From positions 1 to 23,059 of IMG/VR virus record IMGVR_UViG_3300028595_000059: a stretch of 23,059 nucleotides of DNA; one strand, written 5' to 3'. This DNA comes from a virus. The notes beneath the pieces are model-generated. The model was not told where the DNA came from and did not search any database. It saw only the letters and a list, made by a program, of their open reading frames with translations. Below are positions 2,264-22,577 of this stretch, piece after piece (position 1 is the stretch's first letter; every line of letters starts with the position of its first letter). A program made the translations under genes and the position numbers.

Positions 2264-3725
2264 AGTACACCTCGTACCAGAGATACCCGCCACTCGGTAG
2301 TGATTGCCCAGTCCATGCAACGTCATCACCACTCGGCATGGTCAGCAAAACAGATCCACCCGGTACATTCCTGAGATTGAGATTCACCTTCGTTTTGTGC
2401 GTCGGTTCAGGAGGCTGGGGCGGTTCCACTGGCGGCTCAACCGGTACACCTCCGCCAGAGCAGTCCAGCGCCGCGATCTGATCTTTGATGTCCTGCTGCC
2501 CCTGCTTGAGTTCATCGAGCGCGGTCAACACCTCCGTGAGATCGCATTCTCCTGACGGCGGATCAACCGGCGGATCGGTAGGATCGCCCGGATCAATGCT
2601 GTCGCCGACTTTCTGCAAACTCGCCGCCTCAAAGAAAACTTCGTTTCTAAATATAGGCCAGAACGCCTCAGACCAGAAAAACACCATCACGCTCGATTGC
2701 GTCGGCCTGAATTCAATCTCGAAATCACGGAACTCGTCATACTTTGCGTTCTCGATTGACGGATCCCACGATTGCTTGATTACACTCGCCGCCTGCGGTG
2801 TGATGTCTGCATTCAGATCAACGCCGATCCAGGGTGAAAGCATCCCTGACGATTCAAGCCCGTCGCCCTCATTTCTCGGACGCGCATGAACTCTCACATG
2901 CAGTCGATAAAGCGCCCCGGTCTCAAGACCCTGTACAAGCTGGCGGATACCGACCCAATTATGGACGCGGTATGACGTATAAAGCCGGAATGAGTGTTCG
3001 CCCTCCTCTACAAATTGAGGCTCAAAAGCCGCCTCACAGTGTATCCCCTTCTGAGAACCGAAGTTAAAATACTGCCAGTTGAGCGGTATTTTAATATCGC
3101 CCATGCTGTCAACAGCATAATAATCGCCCTCGAAGGAGCCGTTCTTAAGTAGATTGGTCATTGTTTCCTCCTCTTTAATAACCGACGCATCCGGCACAAT
3201 CGCCGCCGCGTTGTAATAGTTCCCTGAAGATCCGATCTGATACGACGCCCAGACTGCCTCAAGCTGCGCCCATGTCATATAACGGAACCCGCCATCTTCC
3301 TCCTCAAAATACGGGTCATGGTAGATCAGTCCGCCGCTGTCGTAACCGACCGCCAGCACGAAATGACCGAACCGCGCCTGCTTCCATGTGAGGTCGAGAT
3401 CTGCCATCACGCCGTAATCCACCAGCAGGATCGGCAAGCGCCCCTCTGCTATGAAGTTGACGAGTTCGCTCTGTGCAATATCCGTCTTTGTAGCGGACGG
3501 CATCTGGTAGGCCCCTGCGAGTAGTCGGATCGTTTCTACACTGATCAGCGCGTCACTGTCAGGTATGATAGGCTCCCCCGGATCTTCCAGCACCATCTCG
3601 TCAACCGTCACCGATTGCCCATTAGCGCCCGCCATCATAGCAACGCACGCAATCCCGCAGTCGTTTAATAGTTCGTCAGCTTCGCTGTCCGTCTGGTTCA
3701 CATACGGAACCGGTAAAATCTTCAT
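2211..3725 (-). CDS. Multidomain lysin: C39-like peptidase, CenC-like module, SH3
   Basis: A 504-residue protein. Residues 1-140 look like a peptidase_C39-type papain fold: VPYVNQ (Q11), NDCGIAC (catalytic C23), GHFVLAVGYD (H121) and YHDPY (D137). Residues about 191-372 form a beta-sandwich carbohydrate-binding module opening with NLLKNGSFEG (CenC-like). Then come an Asp/Pro-rich linker, a short amphipathic helix (398-420), a second Pro-rich linker, and a bacterial SH3 domain (about 445-504) for wall binding. No signal peptide is evident, so export would rely on the holin. Neighbours (phosphoesterase, glycosidase, holin) support a lysis role. C39-like catalysis in an endolysin is less common than amidase or CHAP; a virion-associated protease is the alternative. 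Confidence 0.65.
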   Translation of the reverse strand: MKILPVPYVNQTDSEADELLNDCGIACVAMMAGANGQSVTVDEMVLEDPGEPIIPDSDALISVETIRLLAGAYQMPSATKTDIAQSELVNFIAEGRLPILLVDYGVMADLDLTWKQARFGHFVLAVGYDSGGLIYHDPYFEEEDGGFRYMTWAQLEAVWASYQIGSSGNYYNAAAIVPDASVIKEEETMTNLLKNGSFEGDYYAVDSMGDIKIPLNWQYFNFGSQKGIHCEAAFEPQFVEEGEHSFRLYTSYRVHNWVGIRQLVQGLETGALYRLHVRVHARPRNEGDGLESSGMLSPWIGVDLNADITPQAASVIKQSWDPSIENAKYDEFRDFEIEFRPTQSSVMVFFWSEAFWPIFRNEVFFEAASLQKVGDSIDPGDPTDPPVDPPSGECDLTEVLTALDELKQGQQDIKDQIAALDCSGGGVPVEPPVEPPQPPEPTHKTKVNLNLRNVPGGSVLLTMPSGDDVAWTGQSLPSGGYLWYEVYYGTTLGWCASEYLSPLV

Positions 3726-3726
3726 C

Positions 3727-4596
3727 TTATTCCACCTTCATCAATACATCGACATCGAAATCCTGCCCGTTTGTGCCATAGCGCAGATCCACAAAAGCCG
3801 AGCCACGCGGCAGCGGTTCGGGGTGCTTCTCAATATCGTAGCCCATTTCGTCACCATTCTCCAGCCCGCTCATCTTATAGCCCGGCGTGCGCAGGTAATG
3901 GACAACGCTCGTATATTCCTGCCCCCTGATCGTCAATCCATATTCTTTAATTGTGACGTGATACTGCTGGTGGTTGTGACCGTTCAGGACGATGTCGGCA
4001 TTTCGCAGAAAGACCGCCTGGCGGTTGGTCGATATGACGCCCCGCGTCACAGGCGCGTTTCCGCCATGTCCGTGATGCCAGTAGATACGCTGCTTTGCCC
4101 TTCCTTTTCCATGCTCATCTTTGCTCAGGATGTGCAGCCAGCCGTAATAACCGGCGTTAAAGGCTTCGATGCCCCGGTGTCTGAGTTCTTTCGCCGTCGT
4201 GTTGATCAGATGAGTGGAGGCGTTCTTAAGCACCGCCGTTTCATGGTTTCCCATTGCGAGGATGAATTTGCATCGGTTGAACTGCGATAAAAACACGGCG
4301 GCATCATCGGCGATTGCGTCATAGTAATCAGCGACTTTATATTCTTCACGAAGATTGGTATACGACTTACGTGGATCAAACCGCCCCTGCATGGCATCGA
4401 ACACATCCCCGGCAACCAGCACCACCGCGCCATCCTGATTCGCCCGCGTCAAATGCCTTGTGAGCAGATTACGATCACACTTGACTGAATCAAAATGCCA
4501 GTCGCTTGATAGCATAAGCGGGATCGTGTCACCGGAGCTTATACCATCAACCCGCATCGTCACCACGTTCCCGCGCTGTTCTAAAGTGCTATTCAT
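3727..4596 (-). CDS. Calcineurin-like metallophosphoesterase
   Basis: A 289-residue protein with every metal-binding block of the family in order: DWH (D32, H34), GDVFD (D64), GNHE (N117, H118), HGH (175-177) and GHNH (H207, H209). Such enzymes hydrolyse phosphomonoesters or diesters using two metal ions; the substrate cannot be read from sequence. AGGAGATCAA precedes the ATG. It ends 1 nt before the lysin start. Phage relatives include DNA-processing phosphatases and nucleases, but here it lies in the late region between the coiled-coil membrane protein and the lysin. It might degrade nucleic acid, a wall teichoic-type polymer or a signalling nucleotide; none of these is shown. Confidence 0.85.
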   Translation of the reverse strand: MNSTLEQRGNVVTMRVDGISSGDTIPLMLSSDWHFDSVKCDRNLLTRHLTRANQDGAVVLVAGDVFDAMQGRFDPRKSYTNLREEYKVADYYDAIADDAAVFLSQFNRCKFILAMGNHETAVLKNASTHLINTTAKELRHRGIEAFNAGYYGWLHILSKDEHGKGRAKQRIYWHHGHGGNAPVTRGVISTNRQAVFLRNADIVLNGHNHQQYHVTIKEYGLTIRGQEYTSVVHYLRTPGYKMSGLENGDEMGYDIEKHPEPLPRGSAFVDLRYGTNGQDFDVDVLMKVE

Positions 4597-4612
4597 TTGA
4601 TCTCCTGACTTT

Positions 4613-5086
4613 TCAGACTGTTTCGGACAAGCGCTTTCGCAATTCTTCGCGTTCCTCGATGAGTTGCTTGACCTGCTGCTCTAGCTCGATGATCCGCTCA
4701 TCTCTCGCGTCAATCTCGGTCTGCATCTCAGCGATCTTGCGCTCCAGATCCAATATACGCTTATTGCGTGTCCTGATCTGCTTTGTGAGACTGTCGATTC
4801 GATCTTCTTGAGATTGTACCGTATCCTTTAACTCATCATTGGATAATTCGAGCTTGAACACCCGCTCCTCAAGGCAACCCGCTTTTTCGATGTTCTTATC
4901 AGACGAAGCCCGGTAATCATCAGCCACGCCCTCGAAACTTCCGATAATCCGCGATTGTAAACCAGTCTTCAGCTCAGTGACTTTCCACCATGCTACCGCC
5001 ACCACCACCGCGACCACTCCTACCAATGCCCAGAACTCCAGGCGATTAAATACATCTGCCAGCCCTTCGATGCCTTCTAAACCCAT
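4613..5086 (-). CDS. Membrane-anchored coiled-coil protein (spanin-like or lysis accessory)
   Basis: A 157-residue protein with one N-terminal transmembrane helix (about residues 18-34, rich in Val, Ala and Trp). It is followed by a long charged heptad-rich region (about 70-155; ELSNDEL, RIDSLTKQ, ELEQQVKQL) predicted to be a coiled coil. A single cysteine is near residue 70. The N-in anchor plus coiled coil resembles Rz-type inner-membrane spanins, and it lies at the head of the lysis genes. However, no partner outer-membrane lipoprotein is seen, and the suspected host may be a monoderm. A structural tether is an alternative. It has its own extended -10 promoter at 5136-5144. Confidence 0.5.
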   Translation of the reverse strand: MGLEGIEGLADVFNRLEFWALVGVVAVVVAVAWWKVTELKTGLQSRIIGSFEGVADDYRASSDKNIEKAGCLEERVFKLELSNDELKDTVQSQEDRIDSLTKQIRTRNKRILDLERKIAEMQTEIDARDERIIELEQQVKQLIEEREELRKRLSETV

Positions 5087-5135
5087 CCGCGTTCATCGCT
5101 TTCTCTCAATTTCCAGTAAGCCTCTTACATCCTCA

Positions 5136-18418: not shown

Positions 18419-18577
18419 TTACGGTCTCCGGTCTTTGACCGCTTTCTTGCCCTCTTTGCGTAACGCTGCCGTCCGCATTTCCTTGTCGATGCCGATATAT
18501 TCCTCTATCTTATCGACCACCATGAGCAGCGCCTGCCGTATACCGACCCAAAGCGTAACGGTGTCCTTATCCATCAT
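18419..18577 (-). CDS. Small helical protein (52 residues)
   Basis: An ATG at 18577 forms a 4-nt ATGA overlap with the stop of the minor head gene and opens a 52-codon frame ending TAA. The product (MMDKDTVTLWVGIRQALLMV, then a VDKIEEYIGID segment and a strongly basic end, RKEGKKAVKDRRP) looks like an amphipathic helix with a basic tail. The overlap, its operon position and the clean stop before the promoter support it as a real gene. I recognise no family. It may bind DNA or the capsid interior. Confidence 0.55.
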   Translation of the reverse strand: MMDKDTVTLWVGIRQALLMVVDKIEEYIGIDKEMRTAALRKEGKKAVKDRRP

Positions 18578-20898
18578 GCCCCCTGATTTCTCGCGTAATA
18601 CTGCGAAGCCCCATCGCCCAACGCCTGCGTCATCGACTGCTCGATCACCTGATTACCGAATACCGAATCCTGATGCGTCCCTACGAACTCAGACAACGGC
18701 ACGCCAGACTGGTAGGCGTTATACTTCCCTGGCGACCTGCGAAATGATGCTTGCTGACGCTGACGATCCTCTGACAATCCAGCGAACCACTGCTCACCCG
18801 TCTGCTTGACTGGCGGATCACCGCCTTCGACCTGATAGACCGCAGAGCAACGCCCTCCGTAGTGATCATCGACGCGCTGATCCAGTTCCAACTCAGTCCC
18901 ATGAAGCGCAACGCAGGTGAGACAGTTATGAACAACTACCCCATTTGCAATATAAGTATTATCTTCATCTACTTCCAAATTATACACAAATGCGTTATAA
19001 TTACGCTTAGATATATTAGACGAGGTGATAATATGCGTGGTGAAACTATTACAATGCCCTGCAAGACTTGCGGGAAGGATGTTACTATCTTCAAATCCCA
19101 ACTTAAGGGAAGGACTGAGATCGCTTGTTCCAAGGCTTGTAACGCTATTTGGCAGAAGAGAAACAGAACCAAGTATATCTGTAAGCATTGCGGAAATGTA
19201 TTTGAGCTTCGTCCATCCGAAGTTAAAAAGAGAACTCAATTTGATTACTGTTCTATTGAGTGTAAATTGGAAGCGACCGGCGTTTATAAAACTTGTGTTG
19301 GTTGTGGTAAAACGTTTAGAGTTCCGCAATCCAACGCTCATCGGTACAACTACTGCAGTATTGAATGCAGAAACATCCACAGACCGCCGAACCGTCTGAT
19401 TTGCAAAAGGTGCGGGAAGGAATTTATTAACAGCTCCAAACATGCACGCCATTATTGTAGCGAGGAATGCCGTCGTCCACCGCTGATAAAAACCTGCTTG
19501 AACTGCGGTGAAGATTTTCGCGTTTGTCCCGGCCCACTTAGCAGGGATCAGATATTCTGTTGTGCCAGTTGCTATCATCAATATACTGGCGAGACCGAAC
19601 CAGAAAAGAATGTCAGGCTTTGCCTCGAGACCATTGAAGAACCTTTTGACAAGCAATCTAAAATTGACAGATATGCTGTCGATTTTTTCATTCCACGATT
19701 GAATCTTGCTCTTGAAGTCGATGGGGTTTATTGGCATTCCAAACGCCCAGGAGCCGACGCCAGAAAAACGAAGAGGCTCAACGACGCCGGTTATTTTGTC
19801 ATCCGCATTCCTGATACGCCATTTTATGGTGACGTCACTGGTGATATGGTTGAGATCGTGCGAACCGTTCTCAGTAAAGATAAAGACCTCATCGCCGGAG
19901 TCAATTCTTTCGGCGATTTCCCAATAACAATATCCCCCCCGCTTAATTAGAATTGGATGATCTGAAGTGCATTCCAATTCACCAAAAGAGCCAGATAATT
20001 TAACCATGTCTTTACTATACATGCGCTTTAGTATTTCGTTAACTTTGCGATACTGCCCCGTGTGAGTTAGTACATATTCACCAGCATCAATATCCTGAAT
20101 GTATTTGTCTCCATCAATAGTTTTTACAACTGTGTTTTCTGGAAAACAGGTTCGGCTATCCAGCGCCGCGATCCTGTACTTCTTAACGATGAACTGGTTG
20201 TTCGCCATCACCTGCGCAACCTCAGCCTCGCGGTATGCCGTCAGTTGCAGCGTCCGCATGAGATTGTCGCTGGCGTGTGTCGGTATGCCCTCAGTCAGCC
20301 TCCGCACATCCAGCGCAGTCGTGAGCGGGTTCTGGCGGTTGCGTATGCCGTTGATGATCGTATCTTCCAGCAGGTTAGCGTAGCCATCACCCCACCCAGA
20401 AAGCCTTTGTTGCCACGCATCAGACCGCACGTAATCCGTCGCAATCTGCAACGCCCGATCATCCAGCGTGACATAGTTCAGCCCGCCCCCGATGATTTCC
20501 TGCTCATAGTATTGCATCGCTGAGGGTGATACCGGGTTACGGTCAGCCCTCGCAAGCGCCGCAGCCAGCACGCCGAAGATGGAAGCCGTCACCGCAGGAA
20601 CGGCAATCTGCGCACCGCTCATCTGCACATCCTCATCAATCGACGCGAGGATCAGTTCCGTATTATCCATAACGTCACCGAATGCGCTGAAAACCGCAAG
20701 CAGTTCCGCGTTGTCAATCGTCAGCGGCTCACCCGCCTCATCAAGCGCTTCTACCTCATCCTGAAACGCCCTCAAAGCCCGTTGCATCCTGCCGTTCCGA
20801 GCATCAACCAGCGCCCGGATTTGCCTGAACGCCGAAGCCGTCACCTGCGCATAAGAGCGATCAAGCTCCTCGTTTGCATATCCCTGAATAGTTGGCAT
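18574..20898 (-). CDS. Mu F / SPP1 gp7-like minor head protein interrupted by an intein
   Basis: The 774-residue precursor consists of an N-extein (1-250), an intein (251-658) and a C-extein (659-774). Joining the exteins restores the DSRTC-x2-C-x3-HG motif and, further on, HYGGRCSAVY, the conserved cysteine/histidine block of the Mu F / SPP1 gp7 head-morphogenesis domain. The spliced protein would be 366 residues, a usual size. It is expected to sit near the portal inside the procapsid and help genome delivery or portal incorporation. Its gene follows portal and a small ORF with a 1-nt overlap (TGATG), the standard order. The insertion interrupts the most conserved motif, as is typical for homing elements. 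Confidence 0.85.
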   Translation of the reverse strand: MPTIQGYANEELDRSYAQVTASAFRQIRALVDARNGRMQRALRAFQDEVEALDEAGEPLTIDNAELLAVFSAFGDVMDNTELILASIDEDVQMSGAQIAVPAVTASIFGVLAAALARADRNPVSPSAMQYYEQEIIGGGLNYVTLDDRALQIATDYVRSDAWQQRLSGWGDGYANLLEDTIINGIRNRQNPLTTALDVRRLTEGIPTHASDNLMRTLQLTAYREAEVAQVMANNQFIVKKYRIAALDSRTCFPENTVVKTIDGDKYIQDIDAGEYVLTHTGQYRKVNEILKRMYSKDMVKLSGSFGELECTSDHPILIKRGGYCYWEIAERIDSGDEVFIFTENGSHDLNHITSDVTIKWRIRNADDKITGVVEPLRFSGVGSWAFGMPINPIDFKSKIQSWNEKIDSISVNFRLLVKRFFNGLEAKPDILFWFGLASILMIATGTTEYLIPAKWAGTNAKIFTAVQAGFYQRWTTAFLATIMACMFGAVNKFLPAPFANQTVRRSVDVSAFNTAVVVPMSVGLRNSKRFTTTNTSFINAGRFQFTLNRTVIKLSSLFNFGWTKLKYISAMLTDILGSVSLLPNSVTSLGTSDLSPSLKLGFEDSNILPASLAGHCNSFTTHIITSSNISKRNYNAFVYNLEVDEDNTYIANGVVVHNCLTCVALHGTELELDQRVDDHYGGRCSAVYQVEGGDPPVKQTGEQWFAGLSEDRQRQQASFRRSPGKYNAYQSGVPLSEFVGTHQDSVFGNQVIEQSMTQALGDGASQYYARNQGA
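18973..19001 (+). promoter_or_regulatory. Promoter for the antisense endonuclease gene
   Basis: A perfect TATAAT at 18996-19001 lies 17 bp after TTCCAA (18973-18978, weak -35 with 3/6 matches), about 30 bp before the nuclease start codon. The bases also encode part of the intein C-terminal region on the other strand (Asn-Tyr-Asn). Confidence 0.45.
19033..19950 (+). CDS. Homing endonuclease: five zinc modules plus Vsr-like (EDxHD-type) nuclease
   Basis: The only convincing plus-strand gene, 305 residues. The ATG at 19033 has GAGGTGA (19022-19028) just upstream; the frame stays open to 18862 but without a start signal. Residues 10-180 hold five repeats of C-x2-C-G...C-x3-C type (C10/C13/C32/C36; C50/C53/C73/C77; C88/C91/C108/C112; C124/C127/C142/C146; C155/C158/C176/C180), probably a DNA-reading array. 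Residues about 185-262 form a Vsr/DUF559-like core: RYAVDFFIPR (D217), LALEVDGVYWHS (E228, D230, H235) and RLNDAGYFVIRIP. Vsr-like EDxHD nucleases are known homing enzymes linked to split inteins and introns (Dassa et al. 2009; I-Bth0305I). It lies wholly inside the intein, in antisense, and probably cuts intein-less copies of the head gene. Confidence 0.85.
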   Translation: MRGETITMPCKTCGKDVTIFKSQLKGRTEIACSKACNAIWQKRNRTKYICKHCGNVFELRPSEVKKRTQFDYCSIECKLEATGVYKTCVGCGKTFRVPQSNAHRYNYCSIECRNIHRPPNRLICKRCGKEFINSSKHARHYCSEECRRPPLIKTCLNCGEDFRVCPGPLSRDQIFCCASCYHQYTGETEPEKNVRLCLETIEEPFDKQSKIDRYAVDFFIPRLNLALEVDGVYWHSKRPGADARKTKRLNDAGYFVIRIPDTPFYGDVTGDMVEIVRTVLSKDKDLIAGVNSFGDFPITISPPLN

Positions 20899-21098: not shown

Positions 21099-22577
21099 TT
21101 AGACCAACGGGATAGACCCGCCCCGACCTATGCTCAACGCCTCAAAATAATCTTCCTGATCCGCAGCTACCATGTCCTCGATGCTGGCAATCTCATCAGT
21201 CGAAAGCCCAAGCATCCCGCCGATGCGCTGGCGATACCATTTATTTGGGAATAGATTCGGCGCTGATTTGTACATATTGACCAGCGTGTTCAGGTCATCG
21301 TTCAGGTTGCGGATCTCTGCTGATTTCCACGACACGCTCACATAATCAATCGCCGGAGGCGTGCCGAAGCTGGTTGCGAATGCGCCCTGTATCTTGTGCG
21401 CAACCATCACCGCTTGCTTCCATGCGTCGGTGTTCTCTTTCTGGAAACGCTGACACTTGCCGATCAGCCCGATCTCAAGTTGCTTAAGCGCCTCGCCTGA
21501 CATATTGGATGTGCCTGCCCCGTAGATGGGTGTTTGCGTCGCCTGCGATAACTCTCGCACCATCCGGTCAAGCACCACGACGAACTGAGACATGTCGCCC
21601 GCCTCAAGCGATCCAATCTGGATTGACCTGAGGAAGTTTGCCGTCTCGTCATCAATCCCCGTGATCGCGTTGCCTGACTTATCCGTCAGAGGCAGGTTAA
21701 TCACCGCGCCGGGCATGATTTCCATCGGGTCAATCTCAAAGCCCACGATATACCGGATGATGAATGCCGTCAGTTCTGCGTTCATGGTCGTCGAGTAAAC
21801 CATGCGGTTGATAATGTCCTGGATCGGCAGCGCAGGCCGGATCTCGCTCTCGCCGTAACTTGAATAGTTATCGCGCTTATTGACCACCGGAACCACCGGG
21901 ACGATCCCAACGTTGCCCCAGAATTCCTCCTTTTCCATCACCAGCGCCCCATCCTGACGCCAATACGTCAGGCGACCCGGCTGGTAAACGATGGCTTTCA
22001 TCACCTCAGAGTAGCTATAATCATCTTCCTCCTGATTGACCAGCGCCTGCGAAGATACCGACCAGAGCTTACAAGCCCAGATCACCTCATCAGCCTCGCC
22101 GTAGATGACAGTCACGCCGTCATGTCCGTTGTATGCTGGTTCGCTTGTCAGGATCATATTCGCGGTGTCAACCATGATATAGCTGTCACCATCGCGGATT
22201 GATGAGCGGTAGATCGATCCCTCAAGATTGTCGATCTTTGACCGTTGCATAAGTTCCATGAGCCATTCATCGCCCTGCTCATTTCCCGTATTCCAGCTAT
22301 CCACCGCCAGGCGCGAAGCCATCTTATCAACCACCACCGAGCAGTAGTTGACATTCAGGTCGTTGAGTTCGTCGCTGGTCGATTTCAGCCTGAGCATCGC
22401 CTTCATCTGCTCAGTCATCGTCTGGTCGTGATCACCTACGTTATACCGGCGATACTTAGCGACCCGCGCACCTCTGACCATCTCCTGCTGCGCCCACCAA
22501 TCAGCGTTGATCCGGTCAGCCAGCGCCGGATCTGTCCTGATAAGCAGGTCTTTTAATATCCTCGAATTATCTGCCAT
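21099..22577 (-). CDS. Portal protein (SPP1 gp6-like)
   Basis: A 492-residue protein. The N-terminus with WWAQQEMVRGARVAKYRRYNVGDH and LNDLNVNYCSVVVDKMASRL matches the phage portal gp6-like family. GDSYIMVD, WRQDGALVMEKEE, and the conserved RPALPIQDIINRMVYSTTMNAEL segment followed by a helix that would line the channel (QATQTPIYGAGTSNMSGEAL) also fit. It forms the dodecameric ring at the packaging vertex, binding terminase and later the adaptor. The start overlaps the terminase stop by 11 nt. Length is normal for the family and the sequence is uninterrupted. Confidence 0.85.
   Translation of the reverse strand: MADNSRILKDLLIRTDPALADRINADWWAQQEMVRGARVAKYRRYNVGDHDQTMTEQMKAMLRLKSTSDELNDLNVNYCSVVVDKMASRLAVDSWNTGNEQGDEWLMELMQRSKIDNLEGSIYRSSIRDGDSYIMVDTANMILTSEPAYNGHDGVTVIYGEADEVIWACKLWSVSSQALVNQEEDDYSYSEVMKAIVYQPGRLTYWRQDGALVMEKEEFWGNVGIVPVVPVVNKRDNYSSYGESEIRPALPIQDIINRMVYSTTMNAELTAFIIRYIVGFEIDPMEIMPGAVINLPLTDKSGNAITGIDDETANFLRSIQIGSLEAGDMSQFVVVLDRMVRELSQATQTPIYGAGTSNMSGEALKQLEIGLIGKCQRFQKENTDAWKQAVMVAHKIQGAFATSFGTPPAIDYVSVSWKSAEIRNLNDDLNTLVNMYKSAPNLFPNKWYRQRIGGMLGLSTDEIASIEDMVAADQEDYFEALSIGRGGSIPLV

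Follow-up and report, generated by a model that had tools for sequence, protein, structure and literature searches.

Positions 18925 to 20148 of the viral contig IMGVR_UViG_3300028595_000059 (IMG/VR), whose 23,059 nucleotides we analysed as a whole and refer to as the window, very probably hold a mobile intein that overlaps, on the other strand, with the gene for its homing endonuclease. The intein lies in a MuF-like minor head protein gene on the minus strand, and the nuclease gene runs through the intein on the plus strand in the same codon register. Both frames, the families and folds of their products and the purging of stop codons can be read from the window by computation, and in relatives of the element the same is true of selection on both strands, a start-signal motif that the two frames share, and transfer of intein and nuclease as a unit.

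A continuous intein precursor and its antisense nuclease gene

The head-gene precursor (18574..20898, minus strand) is a single open frame of 774 amino acids with no stop codon, including in the part that faces the nuclease gene. Its joined exteins (residues 1-250 and 659-774) match the minor head protein families PHROG 595 (E = 3e-7), 4728 (E = 1e-6) and 115 (E = 4e-5) in alignments that span the junction, and are 29.7% identical over 179 aa (E = 4e-11) to the head morphogenesis protein of Microcystis phage Mae-JY09. These matches across the junction identify the host as a MuF-like minor head protein, with DSRT/CLTC as the ligated product (the slash marks the junction).

The intein itself comprises 408 codons (precursor codons 251-658; 18925..20148, minus strand), beginning with Cys1 and ending with His407-Asn408, the next codon being Cys+1. 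All of the class-1 cis-splicing residues are present (C1, T61, H64, H407, N408 and C+1), with T61, H64 and N408 invariant among 29 aligned inteins, and the frame matches the profiles Intein_splicing of Pfam (E = 2.3e-7) and intein_Cterm of NCBIfam (E = 6.7e-8). In an AlphaFold model, residues 1-95 (19864..20148, minus strand, including block B, TSDH, residues 61-64, at 19957-19968) and residues 366-408 (18925..19053, minus strand, ending in VVVHN) form a Hint fold with predicted local distance difference test (pLDDT) scores of about 94, and the closest folds in the PDB are the gp41-1 intein (6riz/6qaz) and the Hedgehog Hint domain. Nearly all of the stretch in between, residues 96-365 (19054..19863, minus strand), scores below 50; it is predicted to be a disordered linker in the position that an endonuclease domain normally occupies in inteins. 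The sequence features taken together suggest that the precursor undergoes protein splicing. About 35 codons (intein 68-95 and 366-372) both face the nuclease gene and sit in confident Hint structure. Across the class of related inteins described below, a sense-frame motif, EDFHGDG...EVxVV, is conserved in the intein middle; F145 and G147 (window numbering) hardly vary, and some of the nuclease-facing stretch may therefore be functional in itself.

The nuclease gene (19033..19950, plus strand; 305 aa and a stop codon) encodes zinc-ribbon repeats followed by an EDxHD/Vsr-like nuclease domain, and lies opposite intein codons 68-372 with identical codon boundaries on both strands. The protein matches DUF559 of Pfam (E = 4.6e-9), and its nearest solved structure is the EDxHD prototype, the homing endonuclease I-Bth0305I (PDB 3r3p), both by sequence (E = 2.5e-7) and by fold (E = 7e-6, TM-score 0.81); Vsr is matched by the nuclease domain as well, which places it with the Vsr-like catalytic domains. 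The I-Bth0305I match covers the EDxHD catalytic domain, residues 186-263 (19588..19821, plus strand), in which E191, Y214, D217 and E228 are invariant among 36 nucleases. The AlphaFold model is confident for the catalytic domain (about 189-260, pLDDT of about 90 over most of it) and low for the DNA-binding part. Direct reading of the sequence gives a Shine-Dalgarno element, GAGGTGAT (19022..19029, plus strand), 3 nt ahead of the ATG at 19033. A TATAAT at 18996..19001 (plus strand), which sits in the complement of the C-terminal block of the intein and is absent from the list of our consensus scan, may be the -10 element of the nuclease gene, to judge by its letters. The arrangement points to antisense transcription of the nuclease. 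A first-pass annotation of this DNA had claimed a continuous precursor, a complete intein (Cys1, TxxH, HN and Cys+1), a separate antisense Vsr-like nuclease with its own start signal and a codon register shared by both frames, and the frames, profile matches and models bear it out on each of these.

In this register, stops in the minus-strand frame correspond to TTA, CTA and TCA codons in the nuclease. None of its 305 codons, which include 16 for Leu and 16 for Ser, is one of these, whereas codon use in the other genes of the window predicts 5.8 (P = 1.5e-3); the other two frames antisense to the nuclease contain 14 and 23 stops. At the nuclease, the plus-strand frame runs without a stop for 391 codons, further than any other on that strand of the window. 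The second longest, with 259 codons (3511-4290), is antisense to two minus-strand genes; a 241-aa open reading frame (ORF) within it gave no family matches, and this frame is probably open by chance.

A large class of related elements

For the window copy taken alone, these counts are suggestive and not overwhelming evidence against chance, and it is the relatives that settle the question. The nuclease of phage Fosterous, a helix-turn-helix (HTH) EDxHD protein, matches 129 phage records. We fetched ten records of this type, from phages of E. coli (Snoke), Haemophilus (Aaphi23), Mycobacterium (Sejanus), Idiomarina, Cronobacter (ES2), Gordonia (Malisha), Pseudomonas, Klebsiella, Vibrio and Salmonella, and in all ten the nuclease is antisense and in register within a continuous head-gene intein; these are also the named host genera for phages of the class as a whole. 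Two scans of viral contigs and one of genomes yielded 143 loci; combined with the named phages, these gave 126 distinct loci, making the window element a member of a large class and not a singleton, a point that the first-pass annotation had missed.

In-register antisense stops are absent from 125 of the 126 loci (33,171 nuclease codons), the lone exception (L030) being a copy with a frameshift that disrupts both frames at one place. The other two antisense frames of the same loci contain 2000 and 1082 stops. One in-register stop was observed versus 666 expected from each locus's own codon use, the loci being related, such that the summed probability of this statistic is not a count of independent events. 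As a control for composition we took stretches of 260 codons from neighbouring genes, and these were stop-free in register in 2 of 53 cases below a guanine-plus-cytosine (GC) fraction of 0.5, 3 of 54 between 0.5 and 0.6, and 42 of 142 above 0.6, versus 28 of 28, 29 of 30 and 68 of 68 nucleases in the same ranges.

When 71 of the precursors were profiled, 62 matched Intein_splicing, 50 Phage_Mu_F, five Phage_portal, two minor capsid 2 and one terminase. Two of the 71 also matched an ADP-ribosyltransferase domain, and the fusion of MuF to an ADP-ribosyltransferase is a known MuF-toxin type. Antisense intein nucleases were found as well in bacterial genomes and metagenome-assembled genomes (L164-L170) from Rubellimicrobium, Scytonema, Gemmatimonadales, Firmicutes and Actinobacteria, presumably in prophages.

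Selection on both strands

Codon position 1 of the intein is codon position 3 of the nuclease in this register. Between Barsten and Lennon, substitutions at intein positions 1/2/3 number 44/4/9 under the nuclease versus 8/4/45 in the exteins (P = 1e-12). The corresponding counts are 38/11/25 versus 13/6/78 for Fosterous and Vivi2, 44/5/18 versus 73/49/194 for the Snoke-Salmonella pair, and 639/254/445 versus 423/324/809 for further pairs pooled. Since the substitutions peak at the third position of the nuclease, it is the nuclease frame that is conserved in the middle of the element, and the intein frame that is conserved in the splicing blocks and exteins.

The two frames also meet at the start of the nuclease gene. 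The block-F motif of the inteins is GHVYNLQ/E, and in 69 of 103 loci that bear it the His codon, CAT, complements the ATG of the nuclease; a Shine-Dalgarno-like sequence, typically GGAGG, is correctly spaced in 57 of these 69, and in many loci the DNA for GHVYNLQ, read on the other strand, gives the GGAGG-N7-ATG of the nuclease. The Leu of block F is encoded by CTC, whose complement is GAG, in 51 of 65 cases versus 502 of 2184 Leu codons elsewhere in those genes (P = 2e-20). Judged from these sequences, codon choice at block F serves both frames. The window nuclease differs from this GHVYNLQ class in that it starts deeper in the intein, with a Shine-Dalgarno element of its own.

Transfer among Gordonia phages

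The homologous head gene of Gordonia phages in the genera Vividuovirus and Kroosvirus has a site, VIN/CRC, that is either empty, as in Geodirt, Kroos and Jabberwocky, or occupied by one of three different inteins, each of which has a nuclease ORF of its own, antisense and again in register. The Barsten-type nuclease matches the endonuclease family PHROG 5046 (E = 2e-15) and the LAGLIDADG enzyme I-MsoI (E = 1e-3), and the Fosterous-type and Keitabear-type nucleases are HTH proteins with an EDxHD-like domain. A search of viral contigs for the Barsten-type nuclease found none.

The 825-nt intein is identical in Barsten (Vividuovirus) and SchottB (Kroosvirus), versus 323 differing positions in 752 codons of their exteins (14% diverged), which reveals a recent cross-genus transfer. 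Between Barsten and the empty allele of Geodirt, the differences per 60 nt moving upstream of the intein are 9, 5, 4, 1, 2, 1, 0 ..., a gradient such as co-conversion of flanking DNA would be expected to leave. An identical intein in diverged flanks, together with this gradient, indicates that in these relatives the intein and its antisense nuclease move as one DNA unit. Six of the Gordonia MuF genes (L002, L012, L013, L015, L016 and L017) present three unrelated-looking inteins and empty alleles at the identical site, and the site offers a ready system for studying competition among homing elements.

Other overprinted layouts

A scan for the intein motif TPNHP, which makes no use of the nuclease, returned 15 inteins related to that of the window, a small sample of this class whose counts are not frequencies. 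An in-register antisense HTH-EDxHD nuclease is present in six of the 15. One more (L177) has an antisense zinc-ribbon/HNH-like nuclease that is off register (NUMOD3, E = 1e-6); at L177:2296-3120 (minus strand), it occupies antisense frame 2, with a TAGGAGG ribosome site and 12 TTA/CTA/TCA codons, as expected off register. Another three carry a zinc-ribbon HNH or EDxHD nuclease in the +1 frame of the same strand, with the intein frame open (L174:2942-3958, L180:3251-3973 and L184:3269-4015, all plus strand). DUF559 is matched in L180 (E = 1e-14) and L184 (E = 4e-14), and these two have the nuclease type of the window, there on the same strand as the intein. The remaining inteins are three with conventional-looking in-frame endonuclease regions and two mini-inteins. 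Exact register, on which the first-pass annotation had laid stress, is thus the rule and not universal. From these sequences, the overlap of a nuclease with an open intein frame appears to be the common principle and the antisense in-register layout its commonest form, and the latter is probably favoured because only there can the opposing stops (TTA, CTA and TCA) be removed by synonymous Leu and Ser changes.

Inteins in methylase and portal genes of Erwinia, Yersinia and Eggerthella phages were checked for antisense nucleases and none was apparent; the Eggerthella phage intein has an in-frame endonuclease-like middle. The Vsr gene of Mycobacterium phage Seagreen (L004) was considered and set aside, as it is antisense within a methylase gene, yet has no continuous intein. 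At this locus (2614-5110) the Vsr-type gene lies antisense between two methylase pieces with no continuous frame, possibly a simple fracture of the host gene.

We think it reasonably likely that inteins with overprinted nucleases form a large, hitherto unrecognised class of phage mobile elements, in which the nuclease may use any frame other than that of the host, both strands are under selection, and a splicing motif can double as the ribosome-binding and start site.

Proposed mechanism and alternative explanations

For the window element, we propose that the head-gene mRNA would be translated through all 408 intein codons. Within the intein, the Hint domain would form from the first ~95 and last ~43 residues, with the nuclease-facing stretch as a linker, and the whole would be excised, the MuF protein being ligated at DSRT/CLTC. 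The nuclease would be made separately, from an antisense transcript with its own Shine-Dalgarno element and ATG inside the intein, and would cut intein-less head-gene alleles near the insertion site, whereupon repair would copy the whole unit; cleavage of an empty target is suggested by analogy with the transfer seen in the Gordonia relatives. Selection would keep both genes, as a nonsense mutation in the intein frame would abolish a head protein that is essential, and an element without its nuclease would no longer be mobile.

Several points weigh against this proposal. Splicing, antisense transcription, target cleavage and the activity of the window copy are steps that we infer, and the codon statistic of the window by itself is moderate, suggestive and not overwhelming at P = 1.5e-3. 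A consensus promoter scan upstream of the window nuclease scored none. Searches of viral contigs for close relatives of the window's nuclease, precursor or joined exteins found none, and the collections searched contained no close relative of its zinc-ribbon EDxHD nuclease nested antisense in an intein, so that selection and mobility are demonstrated for the relatives and not for the window copy.

The lack of close relatives is also what might be expected if the element had decayed, its nuclease being dead and its open frames recent relics. This is the best of the alternatives, although improbable, as the catalytic residues of the nuclease, its Shine-Dalgarno element and the catalytic residues of the intein are all intact, and no TTA, CTA or TCA codon has drifted in. 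It is still less probable that the nuclease is a passenger with another job, such as defence or exclusion of competitors, and does not move the intein. Free-standing EDxHD/DUF559 genes do exist, for example on a Kitasatospora plasmid and in Microcystis phage MaeS, but the cross-genus transfer of intein and nuclease as one identical unit, and the presence at one MuF site of three different inteins that each have an antisense nuclease, are not what a passenger would leave. Slightly lower again we rank a fractured gene, in which the halves of a split intein are made separately, the nuclease interrupts the precursor and the continuous frame is accidental. EDxHD nucleases are reportedly the typical partners of fractured genes in the work of Dassa and colleagues, but in the window the halves are not set apart by any stop, start or ribosome site and lie in a single 774-codon frame, and the intein frame is open in 125 of 126 loci with related nucleases, versus the 666 stops expected. 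A by-product of composition or codon bias with a fortuitous nuclease match is excluded by the numbers. The GC-rich phages do have 42 of 142 neighbouring stretches stop-free in the same register, but the nuclease homology is found through Pfam, PHROG, PDB sequence and fold alike, and in phages below 50% GC the nucleases are stop-free in 28 of 28 cases versus 2 of 53 controls.

The element sits in a head module on the minus strand of this 23-kb contig that consists of the terminase, portal, MuF-like, scaffold-position and major capsid genes. The portal gene (21099-22577, minus strand) is directly upstream of the precursor gene, and the gene at the expected scaffold position, between the 18574-20898 gene and the major capsid gene, has no family assignment.

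Comparison with known systems and implications

The fractured genes reportedly described by Dassa and colleagues in 2009 have a separate EDxHD nuclease between the halves of a split intein, which splice in trans. They resemble the window element in nuclease family, in separate expression of the nuclease and in their occurrence in phage genes, but theirs are two half-genes parted by the nuclease, whereas the window precursor is continuous and antisense to it, as are the precursors of 125 of the 126 relatives.

Intein endonucleases have been described as translated in fusion with the intein (Stoddard 2014, PMC3943268). The large LAGLIDADG and HNH inteins share with the window element a class-1-type Hint domain, a nuclease inside the intein DNA and a conserved site in an essential protein, but theirs is an in-frame fusion, whereas the window nuclease would be made on its own from the other strand, the intein linker apparently being the non-functional complement of the nuclease. 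Consistent with this, the intein-frame middle is predicted to be disordered and the sole nuclease homology is on the opposite strand. The first-pass annotation had drawn both of these contrasts, with fractured genes and with in-frame inteins, and both stand.

In the ShiLan element, an HNH gene is hidden on the same strand, in another frame, within an in-frame insertion in a methylase that has no splicing domains and no detectable ribosome site (PMC11855218). There too, a nuclease gene shares its DNA, out of frame, with an insertion that is open in the host frame, and it spreads from phage to phage; unlike ShiLan, the window element has a full intein, an antisense nuclease and a Shine-Dalgarno element, which places it outside the ShiLan type of same-strand, out-of-frame nuclease with no splicing domain. 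I-Bth0305I, which is located in a group I intron (PMC3943268), has the same catalytic domain and differs from the nucleases described here in their zinc-ribbon and HTH DNA-binding parts. Papers on Salmonella Jerseyvirus mention a capsid morphogenesis protein that contains an intein (PMC8425127), and the Snoke record annotates the intein and not the nuclease. The first-pass annotation knew of no described element of this form, and the open papers do not contradict it: we found in them no description of an antisense nuclease inside an intein, a 2025 preprint on actinophage inteins of 'Non-Canonical Architecture' lying outside our coverage. We therefore regard such inteins as novel with reserve.

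An antisense nuclease in an intein that is read through would be a third way to join splicing and homing, beside in-frame fusion and fractured genes. As the nuclease can come from an antisense transcript, its dosage and timing would be uncoupled from those of the host protein, and the element would be hard to break piecemeal, as one insertion or deletion destroys both genes. Public records of such genes name just a capsid protein, in some cases adding '+ intein', and the class seems to have been overlooked by annotation pipelines that forbid antisense overlap; in more than 100 other phages and bacterial genomes the nuclease arrangement is unannotated. These elements would thus offer, in phage genomes that are already public, natural examples of long DNA stretches that code on both strands and share a regulatory motif.

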